NCBI GenBank assembly: GCA_000720535.1
Contig: JOAZ01000012.1
Span: 124,001-188,000, forward strand
DNA length: 64,000 nucleotides
Reading direction: 5' to 3'
From: Streptomyces halstedii
Lineage (GTDB): Bacteria > Actinomycetota > Actinomycetes > Streptomycetales > Streptomycetaceae
The translations under genes and the position numbers were made by a program. A model generated the notes under the pieces. It did no database searches and had not been told where the DNA came from. It saw nothing but the letters and a program-made list of their open reading frames with translations. Below, piece after piece: positions 54,847 through 61,639 of the stretch (the stretch's first letter is position 1; every line of letters starts with the position of its first letter).

Positions 54847-55293
54847 ATGGACGGCCGTCGACGTAATCCGTACCAGCTGACCGACGAATCACCGGTGTAC
54901 GTGATCTCGATCGCGGCCCAGCTCTCGGGCCTGCACCCGCAGACCTTGCGTCAGTACGACCGCTTGGGCCTGGTCTCGCCGGACCGCACGGCCGGGCGTG
55001 GCCGGCGCTACTCGGCCCGCGACATCGAACTGCTGCGCACCGTCCAGCAGTTGTCGCAGGACGAGGGCATCAACCTCGCGGGCATCAAGCGCATCATCGA
55101 GCTGGAGAACCAGGTCGCCGCGCTCCAGCAGCGCGTCGCCGAGCTCTCGGCGGCGGTGGACGGCGCGGCCGTGGCCATGCAGCAGCGCGAGGCCCAGGTG
55201 CACGCCTCCTACCGCCGGGACCTGGTGCCCTACCAGGACGTGCAGCAGACGAGCGCCCTGGTGGTCTGGCGGCCCAAGCGGCAGTCGGACTGA
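54847..55293 (+). CDS. hspR: Heat-shock repressor HspR (MerR family)
   Basis: 148 residues. MerR-type helix-turn-helix: VYVISIAAQLSGLHPQTLRQYDRLGLV with wing TAGRGRRYSARDIELLRTVQQL, then a coiled-coil (IIELENQVAALQQRVAELSAAV). It binds the HAIR boxes of dnaK and clpB, with DnaK as co-repressor. Last gene of its own operon, giving feedback control. The C-terminal tail (ALVVWRPKRQSD) matches actinobacterial HspR. A start at ATG 54847 lies two bases after the dnaJ stop. Confidence 0.97.
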   Translation: MDGRRRNPYQLTDESPVYVISIAAQLSGLHPQTLRQYDRLGLVSPDRTAGRGRRYSARDIELLRTVQQLSQDEGINLAGIKRIIELENQVAALQQRVAELSAAVDGAAVAMQQREAQVHASYRRDLVPYQDVQQTSALVVWRPKRQSD

Positions 55294-55325: not shown

Positions 55326-56336
55326 TCAGGCTCCGGCGGCGGGCCTTCGCGTCGTCTCCCCGGCTTCGGTGCCCGCGACGCCGGACCGGACGAGCAGCGC
55401 GCCCAGATGGGTGCGGCTGCGGGCGTCGAGGGTCTGCATGAGCTTGGAGATGTGCGCGCGGCAGGTGCGGACGCTGATGCCCAGCTTGCGGGCCACCACG
55501 TCGTCGACGTCGCCCTCGGCCAGGAGCCGGGCGACGCTCTGCTGGACGGCGGTGACCGGAAGGCCGGGGACCGCCGCGGGCAACTGCCGGGTGAGCGGGG
55601 TGGCCTGCGCCCAGAGGACCTCGTAGACCTGGGTCAGATAGGCGACGAGCGCCGGGTGCCGGATCTCCAGGGCGGCGTCCCGTGAGGGGGTCGCCGGGAC
55701 GTAGGCGACGGTGCGGTCGAAGATGATGAGCCGGTCGACGGTCTGCTCGACGGTCCGCACCTGGAGGCGGTCGGCGGGTATCTGGGCCAGGTAGTCCTTC
55801 AGGCCGGGGCTGTAGCGCGCCGGGTGCTGGTAGAGGTGGCGCAGCCGGGCGCCCGAGGCGATCGCGGTGCGGGCGTTCTCCAGGCCCTGACGCATGTTGT
55901 GGGTGAGCCGGTTGCCTCCCGGCTGCGCGGTCAGGACCTCCTCCTTGGCGTGGGTGGAGGCCTCCCGGAGCACGGAGATGATCAGCGAGCGTCCTTCGAG
56001 CACGGTGATCGCGAGGTTGGGGTCCTCGTCGGCGACCCCCGCCAGCGGAGCCAGCGCCCCGGCCAGGGCTGCCGTCAGCCGTATCCGCTCGTCTATCTCC
56101 CGGGTGATGGGTTGCAGCAGGTGGGCCAGCGCGGAGGACGGCGGGACCGGGCGCAGCCACGCGTCGTCGCCCGGGTCGGGCTGGACGAGGGCCATGTCCA
56201 GCAGACACGGGGCCGAGGCCAGGGCGGCGCGGGGCAGGCGGCCCGCGCGCAGCGCCTCCTCGTACAGGCGTATCGCCGGGTCGCACAGCTCGCGGTTGCT
56301 GTGCGTGTGCGCCGGTTTTGCCCTGTCCGCGTGAAT
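55326..56336 (-). CDS. LuxR-type helix-turn-helix regulator, paralogue 1, no ordinary start codon
   Basis: The C-terminal HTH (LAEGDVDDVVARKLGISVRTCRAHISKLMQTL) is LuxR-type; the N-terminal 200 residues resemble the TrmB/phospholipase-D-like sensor region of similar Streptomyces regulators (EVLTAQPGGNRLTHNM, VRTVEQTVDRLIIFDRTVAYVPA). The first ATG is 56195, but homology with the paralogue at 56499-57479 continues 35-40 residues further upstream in the same frame (HTHSNRELCDPAIRLYEEAL against HPHGITELCDEGGRLYASAL). No ATG, GTG or TTG exists there; the only plausible start is ATT at 56336, six bases after a G-run. It may use a rare ATT start or be start-codon impaired. Confidence 0.75.
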   Translation of the reverse strand: MHADRAKPAHTHSNRELCDPAIRLYEEALRAGRLPRAALASAPCLLDMALVQPDPGDDAWLRPVPPSSALAHLLQPITREIDERIRLTAALAGALAPLAGVADEDPNLAITVLEGRSLIISVLREASTHAKEEVLTAQPGGNRLTHNMRQGLENARTAIASGARLRHLYQHPARYSPGLKDYLAQIPADRLQVRTVEQTVDRLIIFDRTVAYVPATPSRDAALEIRHPALVAYLTQVYEVLWAQATPLTRQLPAAVPGLPVTAVQQSVARLLAEGDVDDVVARKLGISVRTCRAHISKLMQTLDARSRTHLGALLVRSGVAGTEAGETTRRPAAGA

Positions 56337-56349
56337 TTGGGACCCCCCA

Positions 56350-56368
56350 CTTTTTGCAGTGCAACAAG
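56350..56368. promoter_or_regulatory. Dyad upstream of LuxR paralogue 1
   Basis: On the minus strand CTTGTTGCA-C-TGCAAAAAG, 9-base arms with one mismatch. It lies 14 bases upstream of the proposed ATT start. Confidence 0.5.
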
Positions 56369-56498: not shown

Positions 56499-57479
56499 TC
56501 ACTCCTGGTTCAGGATTCCCGACTGCGCGATCAGATAGCCGAGTTGGGCCCGGCTGTTGCTGCCGAGCGCCGCGTTCAGTTTGGCCACGTGCGCGCGGCA
56601 GGTGCGGACGTTCATTCCGAGGCGGCGTGCGATCGAGTCGTCCACGTGCCCTTCGACGAGGAGTTGGGCAATCGACCGCTGAACTCCGCTGATGCCGAGG
56701 GGAGTCGGTTGGTACTTCACTTCCTCCAGCAGCGGTGCGGCGCGCGCCCACAGCTGCTCGAATACCTTGACGAGATATTCGACCAGGCCCGAATGGCGGA
56801 GTTCCAGAGCGATTTGGCGGTCGTCCGTGGCGGGAATGAAAGCGACGGTACGGTCGAAGATGATGAGGCGCTCGATGAGTTCTTCGAGTGTGCGGATTTC
56901 CACGTTCTCGTCGGCGATGCGTTCCGCGTACGCGAGCGTGCCGGGGCTGTGCCGCACGGTGTGCTGATAGAGCGTACGGAGGCGTACTCCGCGGTGCACG
57001 ACGGACAGTCCGCGCTCCAGGGCCTCGCTGAGGCGGTCCTCGCTGCGGCCGCCGCCGGGCTGGACGGTGAGGACTTCGGTCCGGCACTCTGCCGTGGCGA
57101 GGTCCAGGGCGGCGTTGATCCGGTTGGCGCCTTCCAGGACGGTGATGGCGTGGGTGGTCGGCGGGTCCTGGGCGCTGATGTCCATGAACGGCTCGAAGGA
57201 CTCCGTGAGCAGCACGGATCGCCGCCGGCGGTCCTGGATCTCCCGTTCGAGCGGGTGCAGGTGTTTGGCCAGCGCCGCGGACGGCGGGACCGGACGGAGC
57301 CATTCCGCGTCGTCCGGATCGGGGTGCAGCAGGGCGAAGTCGATGAGGCACGGGGCCGCCGCCGCCTCGGAGCGGGCGATGCGGCCGGAGCGAAGCGCGC
57401 TGGCGTACAGACGGCCCCCTTCGTCACACAGTTCGGTGATCCCGTGAGGATGTGTCGGCTTTATGTAGCTTGTGGTCAT
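56499..57479 (-). CDS. LuxR-type helix-turn-helix regulator, paralogue 2
   Basis: 326 residues, ATG 57479. Same layout as its neighbour: N-terminal ELCDEGGRLYASALRSGRIA, a central sensor-like domain (TEVLTVQPGGGRSEDRL, IRTLEELIERLIIFDRTVAFIPA), and the C-terminal LuxR HTH (LVEGHVDDSIARRLGMNVRTCRAHVAKLNAALG). The two paralogues are about half identical by eye. It is divergent from the DIAW-repeat operon; a perfect 8-bp-arm palindrome lies 15 bases upstream of its start. It is thus the likely regulator of that operon. No response-regulator receiver domain is present, so the signal would be sensed directly. Confidence 0.88.
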   Translation of the reverse strand: MTTSYIKPTHPHGITELCDEGGRLYASALRSGRIARSEAAAAPCLIDFALLHPDPDDAEWLRPVPPSAALAKHLHPLEREIQDRRRRSVLLTESFEPFMDISAQDPPTTHAITVLEGANRINAALDLATAECRTEVLTVQPGGGRSEDRLSEALERGLSVVHRGVRLRTLYQHTVRHSPGTLAYAERIADENVEIRTLEELIERLIIFDRTVAFIPATDDRQIALELRHSGLVEYLVKVFEQLWARAAPLLEEVKYQPTPLGISGVQRSIAQLLVEGHVDDSIARRLGMNVRTCRAHVAKLNAALGSNSRAQLGYLIAQSGILNQE

Positions 57480-57494
57480 ATCTCCACCCCCCAG

Positions 57495-57514
57495 GTTCCT
57501 GAACATTCAGGAAC
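57495..57514. promoter_or_regulatory. Perfect palindrome between LuxR paralogue 2 and the DIAW operon
   Basis: GTTCCTGA-ACAT-TCAGGAAC, perfect 8-bp arms, in the divergent promoter region. Candidate operator for the adjacent regulators. Confidence 0.7.
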
Positions 57515-57608
57515 ATGATGCATCGACTCGGTGGTGTTCGAGTGCCTGGGTGAGACATCGTCTTTGGTGCGGGGGACGAAGAATCCACAAGTGAGGACGA
57601 AGCCGACT

Positions 57609-58031
57609 ATGTATAAGCGAATGCTTCGCTCGGCGCTTGCCGCCTCGTTCGTTGCAGCCCTGGGCATTGGACTGGCGGGCGGGGGCGACATCGCCTGGGG
57701 CGGGGAGGCCGCAGCGGTACCGGGTGACATCGCCTGGAGTGTCGAGGCCGCACGTGCGCCGGGTGACATCGCCTGGAACGTCCGGGCCGTGTCCGCGCCG
57801 GACGACATCGCTTGGAGCGCCAAGCCCGGTGACATCGCCTGGAGTGCCAAGCCCGGTGACATCGCCTGGGGCGCTCAGTCCGGTGACATCGCTTGGGGCG
57901 CTCAGTCCGGTGACATCGCTTGGGGCGCTCAGTCCGGTGACATCGCTTGGGGCGCTCAGTCCGGCGACATCGCCTGGGGTACCCAGTCCGGTGACATCGC
58001 CTGGTCCACTCCGGCCGGCTCGGTCGCATGA
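57609..58031 (+). CDS. Secreted DIAW-repeat protein (possible multicopy peptide precursor)
   Basis: 140 residues, ATG 57609. A signal peptide (MYKRMLRSALAASFVAALGIG) is followed at once by eleven units beginning GDIAW (once DDIAW): three of 13 residues (for example GDIAWSVEAARAP), then seven of 9 residues (SAKP, GAQS x4, GTQS types), then a last one ending STPAGSVA. Unit starts are 57684, 57723, 57762, 57801, 57828, 57855, 57882, 57909, 57936, 57963 and 57990; units 6-9 differ by almost nothing at DNA level. Nothing but repeats forms the mature protein, so it is either a repetitive wall/surface polymer or a precursor cut into short Trp-containing peptides. The next start overlaps its stop (ATGA). 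Confidence 0.85.
   Translation: MYKRMLRSALAASFVAALGIGLAGGGDIAWGGEAAAVPGDIAWSVEAARAPGDIAWNVRAVSAPDDIAWSAKPGDIAWSAKPGDIAWGAQSGDIAWGAQSGDIAWGAQSGDIAWGAQSGDIAWGTQSGDIAWSTPAGSVA
57684..58016 (+). repeat. Coding tandem repeat: 39-bp and 27-bp units
   Basis: Three 39-bp units, then seven 27-bp units, then a partial unit, all in frame. Units 6-9 share the 27-bp sequence GG(T)GACATCGC(T/C)TGGGGCGCTCAGTCC. Confidence 0.95.
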
Positions 58032-58348
58032 CCACCCCGCCGGACGACCGTACCTTCCGCCGTGAGATGGCGACGGCGTACCGGTCAGGGTGGCACTTCA
58101 TCGATCTGCTCACGGCGCTGACGCGCCAGGGCGATTCGTTGATGGTCACCCTGTTCGGGGAGCCGATCGTCGTCGTGATGGAGGCCGAGGACGACATCCG
58201 CGCCTACCGGTGCCTCCGTCGCCCCCGAGGCGCCCCGCAACCGGTCCGCTGTGCCGTGAGGTACGGCATGATCTTCGTCAATCTCGATCAGCGCGACCAC
58301 GAGCTGTTCGAACAAGAAGCCATTTCCGCCACCCCCCGCAGCGCCTGA
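58028..58348 (+). CDS. Hypothetical partner of the DIAW-repeat protein
   Basis: 106 residues, cytosolic, ATG 58028 overlapping the stop of the repeat protein gene by 4 bases (ATGA), so it is translationally coupled. It has a helix (FRREMATAYRSGWHFIDLLTALTRQG), then beta strands (SLMVTLFGEPIVVVMEAEDD, and VRYGMIFVNLDQRDHELFEQ). No cysteine pair, metal motif or membrane segment is visible and I recognise no family. Its strict coupling suggests it handles the repeat protein (processing, chaperoning or immunity), but nothing in its sequence decides between these. Confidence 0.72.
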   Translation: MTTPPDDRTFRREMATAYRSGWHFIDLLTALTRQGDSLMVTLFGEPIVVVMEAEDDIRAYRCLRRPRGAPQPVRCAVRYGMIFVNLDQRDHELFEQEAISATPRSA

Positions 58349-58448: not shown

Positions 58449-58850
58449 TCAGCCCCTGCCGAGCGCCCGGTCCACGGCGATCTCGATGACCACCCGGTGC
58501 GGGTTGTGCGCCGGAGTGCGTTCGTACCGCACCGCGTAGCGCCGTACCGCGTCCTCGACCTGCTCGGGCTCCGTACGGATCACCGCGCGCCCCTCCAGGG
58601 TCGCCCAGCGACGGCCCTGCGTCTGGCAGACCGCGACCCGTGCCCCTTCCGGGCCGGCCGCCAGGACATGGGCCACCTTCCTGCTCTTCCCGCTCGTGAT
58701 GACCCGCGCCGTCCTGGTGTCCGGGTCGTACGTCACGCCGACCGGCACCACGTGCGGGGTCCCGTCCGGGCGGAGCGTGGTCAGGGTGCACACATGGCGC
58801 TCCCGCCAGAAGGCGAGGTAGTCGGTTCCGGGGTTGCGTACGTCAGGCAT
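58449..58850 (-). CDS. Pyridoxamine 5'-phosphate oxidase-family protein (split-barrel flavin/F420 type)
   Basis: 133 residues. The N-terminal FWRERHVCTLTTLRPDGTPHVVPVGVTY and RVITSGKSRKVAHVLAA blocks are those of small split-barrel proteins (TIGR03618/F420-dependent group); C-terminal RRYAVRYERTP. These bind FMN or coenzyme F420 and reduce small molecules; streptomycetes make F420, so that cofactor is likely. Start ATG 58850. It is divergent from clpB, with 143 bases between the start codons, which hold the clpB HAIR box. Confidence 0.88.
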   Translation of the reverse strand: MPDVRNPGTDYLAFWRERHVCTLTTLRPDGTPHVVPVGVTYDPDTRTARVITSGKSRKVAHVLAAGPEGARVAVCQTQGRRWATLEGRAVIRTEPEQVEDAVRRYAVRYERTPAHNPHRVVIEIAVDRALGRG

Positions 58851-58993: not shown

Positions 58994-61639
58994 GTGGACG
59001 CCGAGCTGACCAACAAGAGCAGGGACGCCCTCAACGCGGCCACCAGCAGGGCCGTCAAGGACGGACACCCCGACCTGACCTCCGGCCACCTGCTGCTGGC
59101 GCTGCTCGCGGGCGAGGACAACGCGAACGTCACCGACCTGCTGGCCGCCGTCGAGGCCGACCAGGTGGCCGTACGCGAGGAGACGGAGCGTTTCCTCGGC
59201 TCGCTGCCCAGCGTCACCGGGTCGACCGTCGGCCCGCCGCAGCCCAGCCGCGACCTGCTCGCCGTCCTCGCCGACGCGGACCAGCGGGCGAAGGAGCTGG
59301 GTGACGACTACCTCTCCACCGAGCACCTGCTGATCGCCGTCGCGGCGCGGGGCGGCCGCGCCGGTGAGATCCTCCAGGCACAGGGAGCCAGTGCCGAGAA
59401 GCTGCTGGACGCGTTCGAGAAGAGCAGGGGAGGGCGCCGGGTGACCACTCCCGACCCCGAGGGGCAGTACAAGGCCCTGGAGAAGTTCGGCACCGACTTC
59501 ACCGCCGCCGCCCGCGAGGGCAAGCTCGACCCGGTCATCGGCCGGGACCAGGAGATCCGCCGCGTGGTGCAGGTGCTCTCCCGCCGTACGAAGAACAACC
59601 CCGTGCTCATCGGTGAGCCCGGCGTCGGCAAGACCGCCGTGGTGGAAGGGCTCGCCCAGCGCATCGTCAAGGGCGACGTGCCGGAGTCCCTGCGCAACAA
59701 GCGGCTCGTCTCGCTGGACCTCGGCGCGATGGTCGCGGGCGCCAAGTACCGCGGCGAGTTCGAGGAGCGGCTCAAGACCGTCCTCTCCGAGATCAAGGAG
59801 AGCGACGGCCAGATCATCACCTTCATCGACGAGCTGCACACCGTGGTCGGCGCGGGCGCCGGCGGCGACTCCGCGATGGACGCGGGCAACATGCTCAAGC
59901 CGATGCTCGCCCGCGGTGAGCTGCGCATGGTCGGCGCCACCACGCTGGACGAGTACCGCGAGCGCATCGAGAAGGACCCGGCCCTGGAACGCCGCTTCCA
60001 GCAGGTCCTGGTCGCCGAGCCGTCCGTCGAGGACACCATCGCGATCCTGCGCGGACTCAAGGGCCGCTACGAGGCCCACCACAAGGTCCAGATCGCGGAC
60101 TCCGCGCTGGTGGCCGCGGCGACGCTCTCCGACCGCTACATCACCTCGCGCTTCCTCCCCGACAAGGCCATCGACCTGGTCGACGAGGCGGCGTCCCGGC
60201 TCCGCATGGAGATCGACTCCTCCCCGCTGGAGATCGACGAGCTCCAGCGTGCCGTGGACCGGCTGCACATGGAGGAGCTGGCCCTCAAGAACGAGACCGA
60301 CGAAGGGTCCAAGCAGCGCCTGGAGAAGATCCGCCGCGACCTCGCCGACAAGGAGGAGGAGCTGCGCGGCCTCACCGCCCGCTGGGAGAAGGAGAAGCAG
60401 GGCCTCAACCGGGTCGGGGAGCTGAAGGAGCGCCTCGACGACCTGCGCGGCCAGGCCGAACGCGCCCAGCGCGACGGGGACTTCGACACCGCCTCCAAGC
60501 TGCTGTACGGGGAGATCCCCGGGCTGGAACGGGAGCTGGCCGAGGCCGACGAGGCCGAGCAGGAGGCGGCCAGGGACACCATGGTCAAGGACGAGGTCGG
60601 TCCGGACGACATCGCGGACGTCGTGGGCGCGTGGACCGGGATCCCCGCTGGGCGGCTCCTGGAGGGCGAGACGCAGAAGCTGCTGCGGATGGAGGCGGAG
60701 CTGGGCCGGCGTCTGATCGGCCAGACCGAGGCCGTGCGGGCCGTGTCCGACGCCGTGCGGCGCACCCGGGCCGGGATCGCCGACCCGGACCGGCCGACCG
60801 GTTCGTTCCTCTTCCTCGGCCCCACCGGGGTCGGCAAGACCGAGCTGGCCAAGGCGCTGGCGGACTTCCTGTTCGACGACGAGCGGGCCATGATCCGCAT
60901 CGACATGAGCGAATACGGCGAGAAGCACAGCGTCGCCCGCCTCGTCGGCGCCCCGCCCGGATACGTCGGCTACGAGGAGGGCGGCCAGCTCACGGAGGCG
61001 GTCCGCCGCCGCCCGTACAGCGTCGTCCTGCTGGACGAGGTGGAGAAGGCCCACCCCGAGGTCTTCGACATCCTGCTCCAGGTGCTCGACGACGGGCGGC
61101 TCACCGACGGGCAGGGGCGGACGGTGGACTTCCGCAACACCATCCTGGTGCTCACGTCGAACCTCGGCAGCCAGTTCCTGGTGGACCCGCTGACGGAGCC
61201 CGAAGTGAAGAAGGAGCGGGTGCTGGAGGTCGTCCGGGCCTCGTTCAAGCCGGAGTTCCTCAACCGGCTCGACGACCTGGTCGTCTTCTCGGCCCTGTCC
61301 GGTGACGAGCTGGCCCACATCGCGGGCCTCCAGGTGGACCGCCTCGCCGACCGCCTGGCCGACCGGCGGATCAGCCTCGACGTCACACCGGAGGCGCTGG
61401 CCTGGCTGGCGGAGGAGGGCAACGACCCGGCGTACGGCGCCCGGCCGCTGCGCCGTCTCATCCAGACCGCGATCGGGGACCGGCTCGCCAGGGAGATCCT
61501 CGCGGGCGAGATCAAGGACGGCGACACGGTGCGGGTGGACCGCGCCGGGGACGGCCTGATCGTGGGGTCGGCGTCGGCGTCGGCGTCGGCAGCGTCAGAG
61601 TCGGCGGCCTCGTCCGGCTCCGGGGCGAAGACGCTGTAG
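58994..61639 (+). CDS. clpB: ATP-dependent disaggregase ClpB
   Basis: 881 residues. N-terminal double Clp-N repeat (about 1-145), first AAA+ domain with [13 protein letters not shown] (Walker A) and [14 protein letters not shown], the coiled-coil M domain (about 405-530, helical [19 protein letters not shown] region), second AAA+ domain with [14 protein letters not shown], ClpB C-terminal domain ending in a Ser/Ala tail. It rescues aggregated proteins with DnaK. Start GTG 58994 after AAGGAGGAGAC. Controlled by HspR through the upstream HAIR box, together with the DnaK operon 6 kb away. Confidence 0.98.

Follow-up and report, generated by a model that had tools for sequence, protein, structure and literature searches.

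In the window, i.e., the whole stretch of 64,000 nucleotides of Streptomyces halstedii DNA that was analyzed, a repeat gene sits between hspR and clpB, and five genes are predicted in this interval (Table 1). The gene layout given by the first-pass annotation, a 140-residue repeat ORF with an overlapping 106-residue ORF and two divergent LuxR-type regulators, was borne out, and so was the description of the two regulators as paralogues without a receiver domain, since none was found in Pfam and NCBIfam scans. The precursor and partner genes share 4 nt (ATGA). The eleven [G/D]DIAW units of the precursor are spaced by 13, 13 and 13 and then seven times by 9 residues; Pfam matches of the repeat protein to DUF5114 and DUF2345 were below the cut-off, and neither identity was accepted. 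Besides the PPOX-class protein, no histidine kinase, transporter or modification enzyme was recognized by Pfam among the five predicted genes, and scans for sigma-70 promoters and for terminators gave no match.

Table 1. Features of the hspR-clpB locus, in window coordinates
Feature	Position	Strand	Basis or remark
hspR	54847..55293	+	Conserved left flank; served as control gene
LuxR2, paralogue of LuxR1 (48% identical)	55326..56195	-	ORF list and alignment
LuxR1, proposed receptor-regulator: TrmBL2-like sensor domain plus LuxR HTH	56499..57479	-	Profile comparisons
LuxR1 codon 145 (Val in the window); its residue tracks core position 2	57072..57074	-	Covariation
Operator-like inverted repeat in the divergent promoter region	57495..57514	.	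9 of 10 positions pair
Precursor, 140 aa: basic and hydrophobic N terminus, eleven DIAW units	57609..58031	+	ORF and 198 distinct loci
The eleven [GD]DIAW units, from the first G through the last W; period of 39 nt, later of 27 nt	57684..58004	+	DNA repeats
Partner of 106 aa, its gene overlapping that of the precursor; similar to the N terminus of Rieske alpha subunits	58028..58348	+	Profile match
F420-dependent PPOX-class oxidoreductase, convergent right flank	58449..58850	-	Pfam and NCBIfam scans; control gene
clpB	58994..61639	+	Conserved right flank

The regulator next to the precursor, LuxR1, comprises 326 residues from the ATG at 57479 and 335 residues from an in-frame ATG at 57506; residue numbers given here refer to the 335-residue form. 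The start is probably the ATG at 57479, behind GGGGGGTGGAG, which places the inverted repeat upstream of LuxR1, whereas a start at 57506 would overlap it. The LuxR1 family profile matches archaeal TrmBL2 (E 3e-7, profile positions 56-251), and the C terminus matches the GerE-type HTH, with Pfam GerE in 102 of 109 aligned members (E 0.01); the window protein itself scores 18.3 bits for GerE, below the cut-off of 23.5, and its matches to Pfam DUF7436 and TbsP_N are both under the cut-offs. The PDB profile matches of the family are TrmBL2 and GerE-type HTH proteins. A TPR domain was found neither in the Pfam matches of the window protein nor in the family table of 109 members, Pfam scans gave no autoinducer-binding family, and an N-terminal TrmB winged helix was not matched, the HTH that was found being C-terminal and GerE-like. 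By these comparisons, LuxR1 is a predicted TrmBL2-like (PLD-fold) sensor domain joined to a LuxR HTH.

The partner gene was matched in 249 of 295 Streptomyces genomes (E 0.001 or better). Altogether 201 loci, i.e., the window, 80 named loci and 120 loci fetched by place, were read, and 198 of them are distinct. In each of the 201, a reverse-strand LuxR match lies directly upstream of the precursor, and the adjacent propeptide-type ORF, which is predicted to be secreted, diverges from LuxR1. When 20 of the 46 partner-negative Streptomyces genomes were searched with the LuxR profile, the top scores did not exceed 249 bits, compared with 459 to 569 bits in five positives; on these scores, the 20 genomes appear to be without a LuxR1 orthologue. 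The co-occurrence of repeat gene and regulator, which the first-pass annotation had set as a refutation test of its own proposal, is therefore favorable to it.

The repeat architecture noticed in the window is not a product of chance, as the relatives keep the same layout and the homogeneity of the core is far above permutation. In the script-chosen precursors of the 198 distinct loci, the motif [DEN]xxW is present without exception, in 1 to 12 copies behind a basic-hydrophobic start. There are 37 dominant cores, e.g., DIAW, DITW, DIGW, EISW, DSTW, DTVW, EPTW, DPIW, and NSSW, and none of the 37 contains Cys. A single core is used throughout in 152 of the 163 multi-unit precursors (mean of 4.5 and maximum of 12 in 1000 permutations of units among proteins), and the remaining 11 have mixed cores. 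Within proteins, identity at the four core positions is 1.00/0.97/0.95/1.00 and at the residue after the Trp (W+1) 0.72, compared with 0.61/0.22/0.20/1.0 and 0.12 between proteins. The other positions tested, those of the spacers, are 0.19 to 0.45 identical within proteins and contain no obvious constant protease site. Single-unit precursors (35 of 198) often carry the unit at the C-terminal end, and 36 of the 198 precursors stop exactly one residue past the last Trp. Because conservation ends at the core and partly at W+1, and because these 36 proteins end at W+1, it is suggested that the precursor releases a pentapeptide-type signal consisting of the core and one further residue. The variable tails (SAKP, GAQS, GTQS), which had originally been counted as part of the signal, find no support, the conserved unit being the core and, in part, W+1.

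The relation between core and regulator was compared with that of the neighboring genes in 104 loci with all control genes (hspR, partner, and PPOX), corresponding to 5,356 pairs. Where the control genes averaged at least 95% identity, LuxR1 identity was 0.963 between loci with the same core (58 pairs) versus 0.758 between those with different cores (106 pairs). By parsimony, the core of the same 173 loci changes 46 times on the LuxR1 tree, compared with 97 times on the partner-plus-PPOX tree; with hspR added (104 loci), the numbers were 26 on the LuxR1 tree versus 56 on the control tree. The pair L066 (DLAW) and L091 (DIGW) may serve as an example, with DNA identities of 99.3% for hspR, 99.0% for the partner and 96.5% for PPOX versus 70.5% for the LuxR1 sensor and 60.8% for the repeats. 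In the ten closest different-core pairs, the DNA of the partner gene is 97 to 99.7% identical, and neither partner nor PPOX tracks the core. Judged from these identities and trees, core type tracks the adjacent LuxR1 rather than ancestry, and LuxR1 and precursor appear to be exchanged as a cassette between conserved flanks.

The correspondence can be traced to a single position of the regulator. LuxR1 residue 145, located within the TrmBL2-like part (segment EVLTVQPGG), matches position 2 of the core in 190 of the 192 loci with a LuxR1 long enough for the comparison. Ser in the core goes with Met145 (56/56), Pro with Leu (31/31), and Ile (54/54), Leu (12/12), Thr (28/29), and Val (9/10) with Val; the two exceptions are L104 (Val core, Ile145) and L226 (Thr core, Leu145). 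The Ser-Met association ranked first among 15,760 tests (phi 1.00) with 17 switches on the tree. No other residue association shows many independent switches: one or two were counted for Pro-Leu and for the residues linked to Ile, and the residue columns associated with Pro, Ile, or Asn cores are confounded with clade. Independent pairs on supported branches of a LuxR1 tree calculated without column 145 were concordant in 9 of 9 cases (p 0.004). The same holds for 11 of 11 pairs on the partner-plus-PPOX tree (p 0.001), for 6 of 6 on a tree leaving out 14 columns (p 0.03), and for the three pairs on supported branches of a poorly supported tree from which the sensor domain was left out (3/3, p 0.25).

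In pairs of loci that differ only by Ser and Thr, residue 145 flips between Met and Val in 24 of 24 disjoint, though not all independent, pairs from eight core contexts, the expectation from same-core pairs of like identity being 0.0. For core position 3, the largest excess was found at LuxR1 residue 162 (39 of 67 pairs versus 7.9 expected). Held-out new distinct loci fitted the residue 145 rule in 34 of 36 cases, and both misses were failures of the parser, i.e., a match that did not span residue 145 in L249 and a wrongly picked core in L383, whose visible DLAW with Val agrees with the rule. The combination of the small Ser with the large Met, and of the larger Thr, Ile, Val, or Leu with the smaller Val, suggests a contact between residue 145 and core position 2, and it is very probable from this covariation that LuxR1 recognizes [DEN]xxW peptides. 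The earlier proposal that Trp-containing peptides are sensed by both adjacent regulators accordingly stands in part: covariation beyond ancestry and residue 145 provide strong comparative support for LuxR1, and a role of LuxR2 as co-receptor is not supported. Two diverged Streptomyces lineages (L326:4166-4324, minus strand, and L327), whose LuxR1 is 57 to 58% identical and which possess several LuxR copies, have DPTW or DPAW cores with Leu145, in agreement with the rule.

The promoter region between LuxR1 and the precursor is strongly conserved across 192 loci. The inverted repeat in this region, initially described as a perfect palindrome, proved to be imperfect (Table 1). Among 48 sampled loci, 36 with I- and S/T-type cores, among others, pair at 7 to 9 of 10 positions, and the 12 that score nothing have L or P cores except for one DVVW; the consensus of the P type is shorter by one base, and that of the L type has an altered left arm. 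The inverted repeat is the sole site of the genome with fewer than two mismatches. The search for a regulon by means of the operator failed, as 11 matches with at most three mismatches (two of them the locus itself) compare with 9 for the reversed pattern.

The second regulator presents a different picture. In the window, LuxR2 has no ATG, GTG, or TTG in frame upstream of the ATG at 56195, and similarity to LuxR1 extends to about 56348 (approximately 50 codons); the gene may be truncated or use another, unusual start. The palindrome TTGCAGTGCAA at 56354-56364, close to the 5' end of LuxR2, is a candidate operator. An extra full-length LuxR copy is missing from 38 of 81 loci, and 10 of 81 contain fragmentary copies. 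The residue 145 rule fits 23 of 50 LuxR2-type copies (Ile 19/30, Thr 3/4, Val 1/4, Ser 0/5, Pro 0/5, Leu 0/2). Identity among these copies is 0.651 between same-core loci (119 pairs) versus 0.525 between different-core loci (1098 pairs), values in which ancestry is not controlled. A co-receptor function of LuxR2, which does not follow the rule and is often absent, was not supported; the LuxR2-type copies rather resemble a fast-changing set of spare regulators. They are multiplied in some and fragmentary in others of the loci L104, L076, L078, L114, L117, and L125 to L127, and in some DSTW/DTSW-type loci they are located on the opposite strand.

The partner is well conserved, with a mean column identity of 79% (38 rows). 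Its profile matches the alpha subunits of Rieske oxygenases (positions 5-69, E 1e-4), Pfam Rieske is weakly matched in 24 of 38 partners (best E 0.0068), and weak matches to Imm35 were obtained in 14 of 38 (best E 0.019). Neither the Cys-x-His nor the Cys-x-x-His cluster ligands were seen by eye in the 38 aligned partners. The protein resembles the beginning of such an alpha subunit minus the iron-sulfur part, and it may act as a chaperone, in processing or in immunity. Outside Streptomyces, the matches are long ORFs of 387 to 672 residues (7 genomes in one search and 12 in another), aligned mostly over residues 9 to 70, which we take for probable Rieske oxygenases on account of the profile match of the partner family. 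The partner is not tied to the system: the single match in the S. halstedii genome leaves none for the second locus L339 described below, and genome G321 with the locus L357 has none.

Overall, the repeat gene is probably a multicopy pheromone precursor that is read by LuxR1, with a switching of specificity like that of pherotypes, and we hold this complete model with considerable confidence; that the signal is secreted, processed, and re-imported is likely as well. From the architecture, the single core per protein, the matched LuxR1, residue 145, and the conserved promoter region, all observed in the comparison, we infer the following course of events up to the response and the direction of control. 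Export of the precursor would rely on the hydrophobic segment at its N terminus, and cleavage would yield short [DEN]-x-x-W-(x) peptides, here DIAW plus one residue. These would re-enter the cytoplasm, probably by an oligopeptide permease, and bind to the TrmB-like (PLD-fold) domain of LuxR1, where residue 145 would read core position 2. Within the divergent promoter, the inverted repeat would be the probable site of action of LuxR1, which would thereby regulate both its own expression and the operon of precursor and partner. Changes of specificity would come about in lineages that swap the LuxR1-precursor cassette or alter its two members together, as is the case for pherotypes.

Four other explanations have to be weighed against this model. 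It is unlikely that the locus primarily makes a ribosomal peptide product, a bacteriocin or other RiPP, whose level is sensed by LuxR1 to achieve autoregulation; the partner or the oxidoreductase would then serve in modification or immunity, and signaling would be secondary. RiPP systems with multicore precursors and with regulators that sense the product are known, a PPOX-class gene adjoins on the other strand, and the partner is Rieske-like with its weak Imm35 matches; however, within the hspR-clpB interval of five genes, Pfam recognized no transporter and no modification enzyme other than PPOX, the cluster motifs of Rieske proteins are absent from the partner, which is also missing at L339 and in G321, both partner and PPOX fail to follow the core, and Cys is absent from all dominant cores. 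We likewise give little credence to a repeat protein that does not diffuse and instead, membrane-anchored or intracellular, binds LuxR1 as a private regulator before export. The hydrophobic segment is indeed short and, by eye, not followed by a clear signal-peptidase site in all members, and covariation indicates recognition but is silent on where it takes place. The positive-inside rule, on the other hand, places the cores outside, several cores per protein fit the release of copies, the species-specific cores and the cassette replacement are the pattern of pherotype systems, and there is no evident reason for a private regulator to diversify in 37 ways.

The two remaining readings were tested and are very improbable. 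A structural protein of the cell wall or surface, whose units expand by unequal crossing-over, would be in accordance with the tandem DNA repeats and the range of 1 to 12 units, but not with the 35 single-unit precursors, many with the unit at the C-terminal end, nor with a homogenized core between differing spacers, and the prediction of core position 2 by LuxR1 residue 145 would be left unexplained. The last point also bears on the possibility that the match between LuxR1 and core reflects genetic linkage only, i.e., neighbors that recombined together without contact of their products. The cassette is swapped as a block and most residue associations are confounded with clade, as linkage would have it; yet the equally close partner gene stays put across different-core pairs, the nearby LuxR2-type copies do not obey the residue 145 rule, and a difference of Ser versus Thr alone is repeatedly accompanied by a flip of residue 145, in eight core contexts.

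The multicopy pheromone model shares traits with several known systems. In the RRNPP family (Rap, NprR, PlcR, PrgX, and Rgg of Firmicutes), the signal is a short peptide, located at the precursor C terminus in some members, and the specificities of signal and receptor are matched, as proposed here. A propeptide gene adjoining the gene of a presumed intracellular receptor-regulator is common to our locus and to RRNPP systems, following the two-gene definition of PMC10075063. The differences are that no TPR was found here, the sensor being TrmBL2-like, that the precursor holds many copies in some species, and that the hosts are Streptomycetales; because the receptor domain differs, the system would not be a member of RRNPP despite working like an RRNPP pherotype system. 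LuxR-LuxI systems based on AHL have the LuxR (GerE) HTH at the C terminus of the regulator in common with LuxR1, in which no autoinducer-binding domain was found and whose adjacent gene encodes a peptide precursor. TrmB regulators possess an N-terminal winged helix and have sugar ligands. The likeness of LuxR1 to TrmB/TrmBL2 lies in the PLD-like sensor domain, in contrast to its C-terminal LuxR-type HTH and proposed peptide ligand. Yeast alpha-factor precursors also consist of a hydrophobic leader followed by tandem signal copies, and their receptor is a GPCR; here, the spacers offer no constant processing site, the copy number goes down to one, and the proposed receptor is a transcription factor. 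The systems comQXPA, comCDE, and agr are pherotype systems, in which a polymorphic signal and its receptor are exchanged as a cassette between conserved flanks as in our loci, but agr- and ComD-type systems have a membrane histidine kinase receptor next to the signal gene, and neither a histidine kinase nor a peptide-modifying gene was recognized among the five predicted genes of the hspR-clpB interval. We conclude that the locus encodes a putative peptide pheromone-receptor system outside RRNPP, AHL-LuxR, and agr.

All 61 family genomes that were searched, representing 17 of 17 genera, contain matches to the LuxR profile, in some perhaps via the HTH alone. Of the 37 secretion-like ORFs in 41 distant LuxR loci (20 from partner-negative Streptomyces and 21 from further genera), 11 terminate in [DEN]xxW plus 0 to 3 residues. 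Replacement of the Trp in the motif by Tyr, Phe, His, Arg, or Leu gave 1, 0, 0, 2, and 1 ORFs, the reversed motif gave 1, and shuffled tails gave a mean of 0.53 and a maximum of 4. Control DNA contained motif-ending ORFs in 0 of 69 cases, from redundant loci, and in 1 of 20 cases in a second set, this one being a spurious-looking ORF. The signal is weak in the remaining families of this order (3 of 28 ORFs; shuffled mean 0.26, maximum 3), and 22 loci of organisms that do not belong to the order yielded no motif ORF. When the motif was accepted anywhere in the final 14 residues, Thr cores of distant loci occurred with Val (7), Ile (1), and Met (1, L360), and Ser cores of distant loci occurred twice with Met, three times with Leu and never with Val; these counts include several close relatives of each other. 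The loci L357 and L360 from other genera adjoin an hspR-like gene, L357 being situated between the N terminus of ClpB and hspR, and neither genome has a partner match.

A further pair is found in the S. halstedii genome itself. On contig C1 (L339:2203-5000), a LuxR relative diverges from a 68-residue secretion-like ORF ending in DFGWQ, and the next gene is of the SARP type (BTAD, E 3e-35); this is likely another peptide channel, distinct from the first, next to a type of regulator familiar from secondary metabolism. Genes for acyl-carrier proteins, aminotransferases, TauD-type dioxygenases, and AMP-ligases near the LuxR-peptide pairs of L355, L347, L353, and L361 suggest biosynthetic neighborhoods. 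The locus may be one channel of a large unrecognized quorum-sensing class of Streptomycetales, a view to which we incline slightly. The class would comprise PLD-domain LuxR regulators, often many per genome and in many cases paired with a secreted precursor that ends in or repeats [DEN]xxWx, with channels separated by a short code including residue 145 and several of them placed beside biosynthetic or SARP genes that they would time.

Streptomyces is known for hormones of the gamma-butyrolactone type. A search of one antibiotic producer for gamma-butyrolactone-type genes and peptide signals was reported to give no strong candidates (PMC11019849), and no prior description of a system like the present one was found in the open-licence literature. 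In Streptomyces coelicolor, transposon insertions in the annotated regulator SCO3664 raised actinorhodin more than 50-fold (PMC6585502), SCO3665 and SCO3666 are LuxR proteins of 327 and 394 residues (PMC3282765), and clpB is SCO3661 (PMC2687793). The gene numbering near clpB leads us to infer that SCO3664 to SCO3666 belong to this locus and that SCO3664 is perhaps LuxR1; the rise of actinorhodin would then be a possible output of the system. If the model is true, it describes an unrecognized form of cell-to-cell communication in antibiotic-producing soil bacteria, which would supply a receptor-ligand code with a named residue as well as simple synthetic inducers for silent gene clusters. Part of the density-dependent control of antibiotics could be explained by a peptide channel that is both conserved and species-specific.
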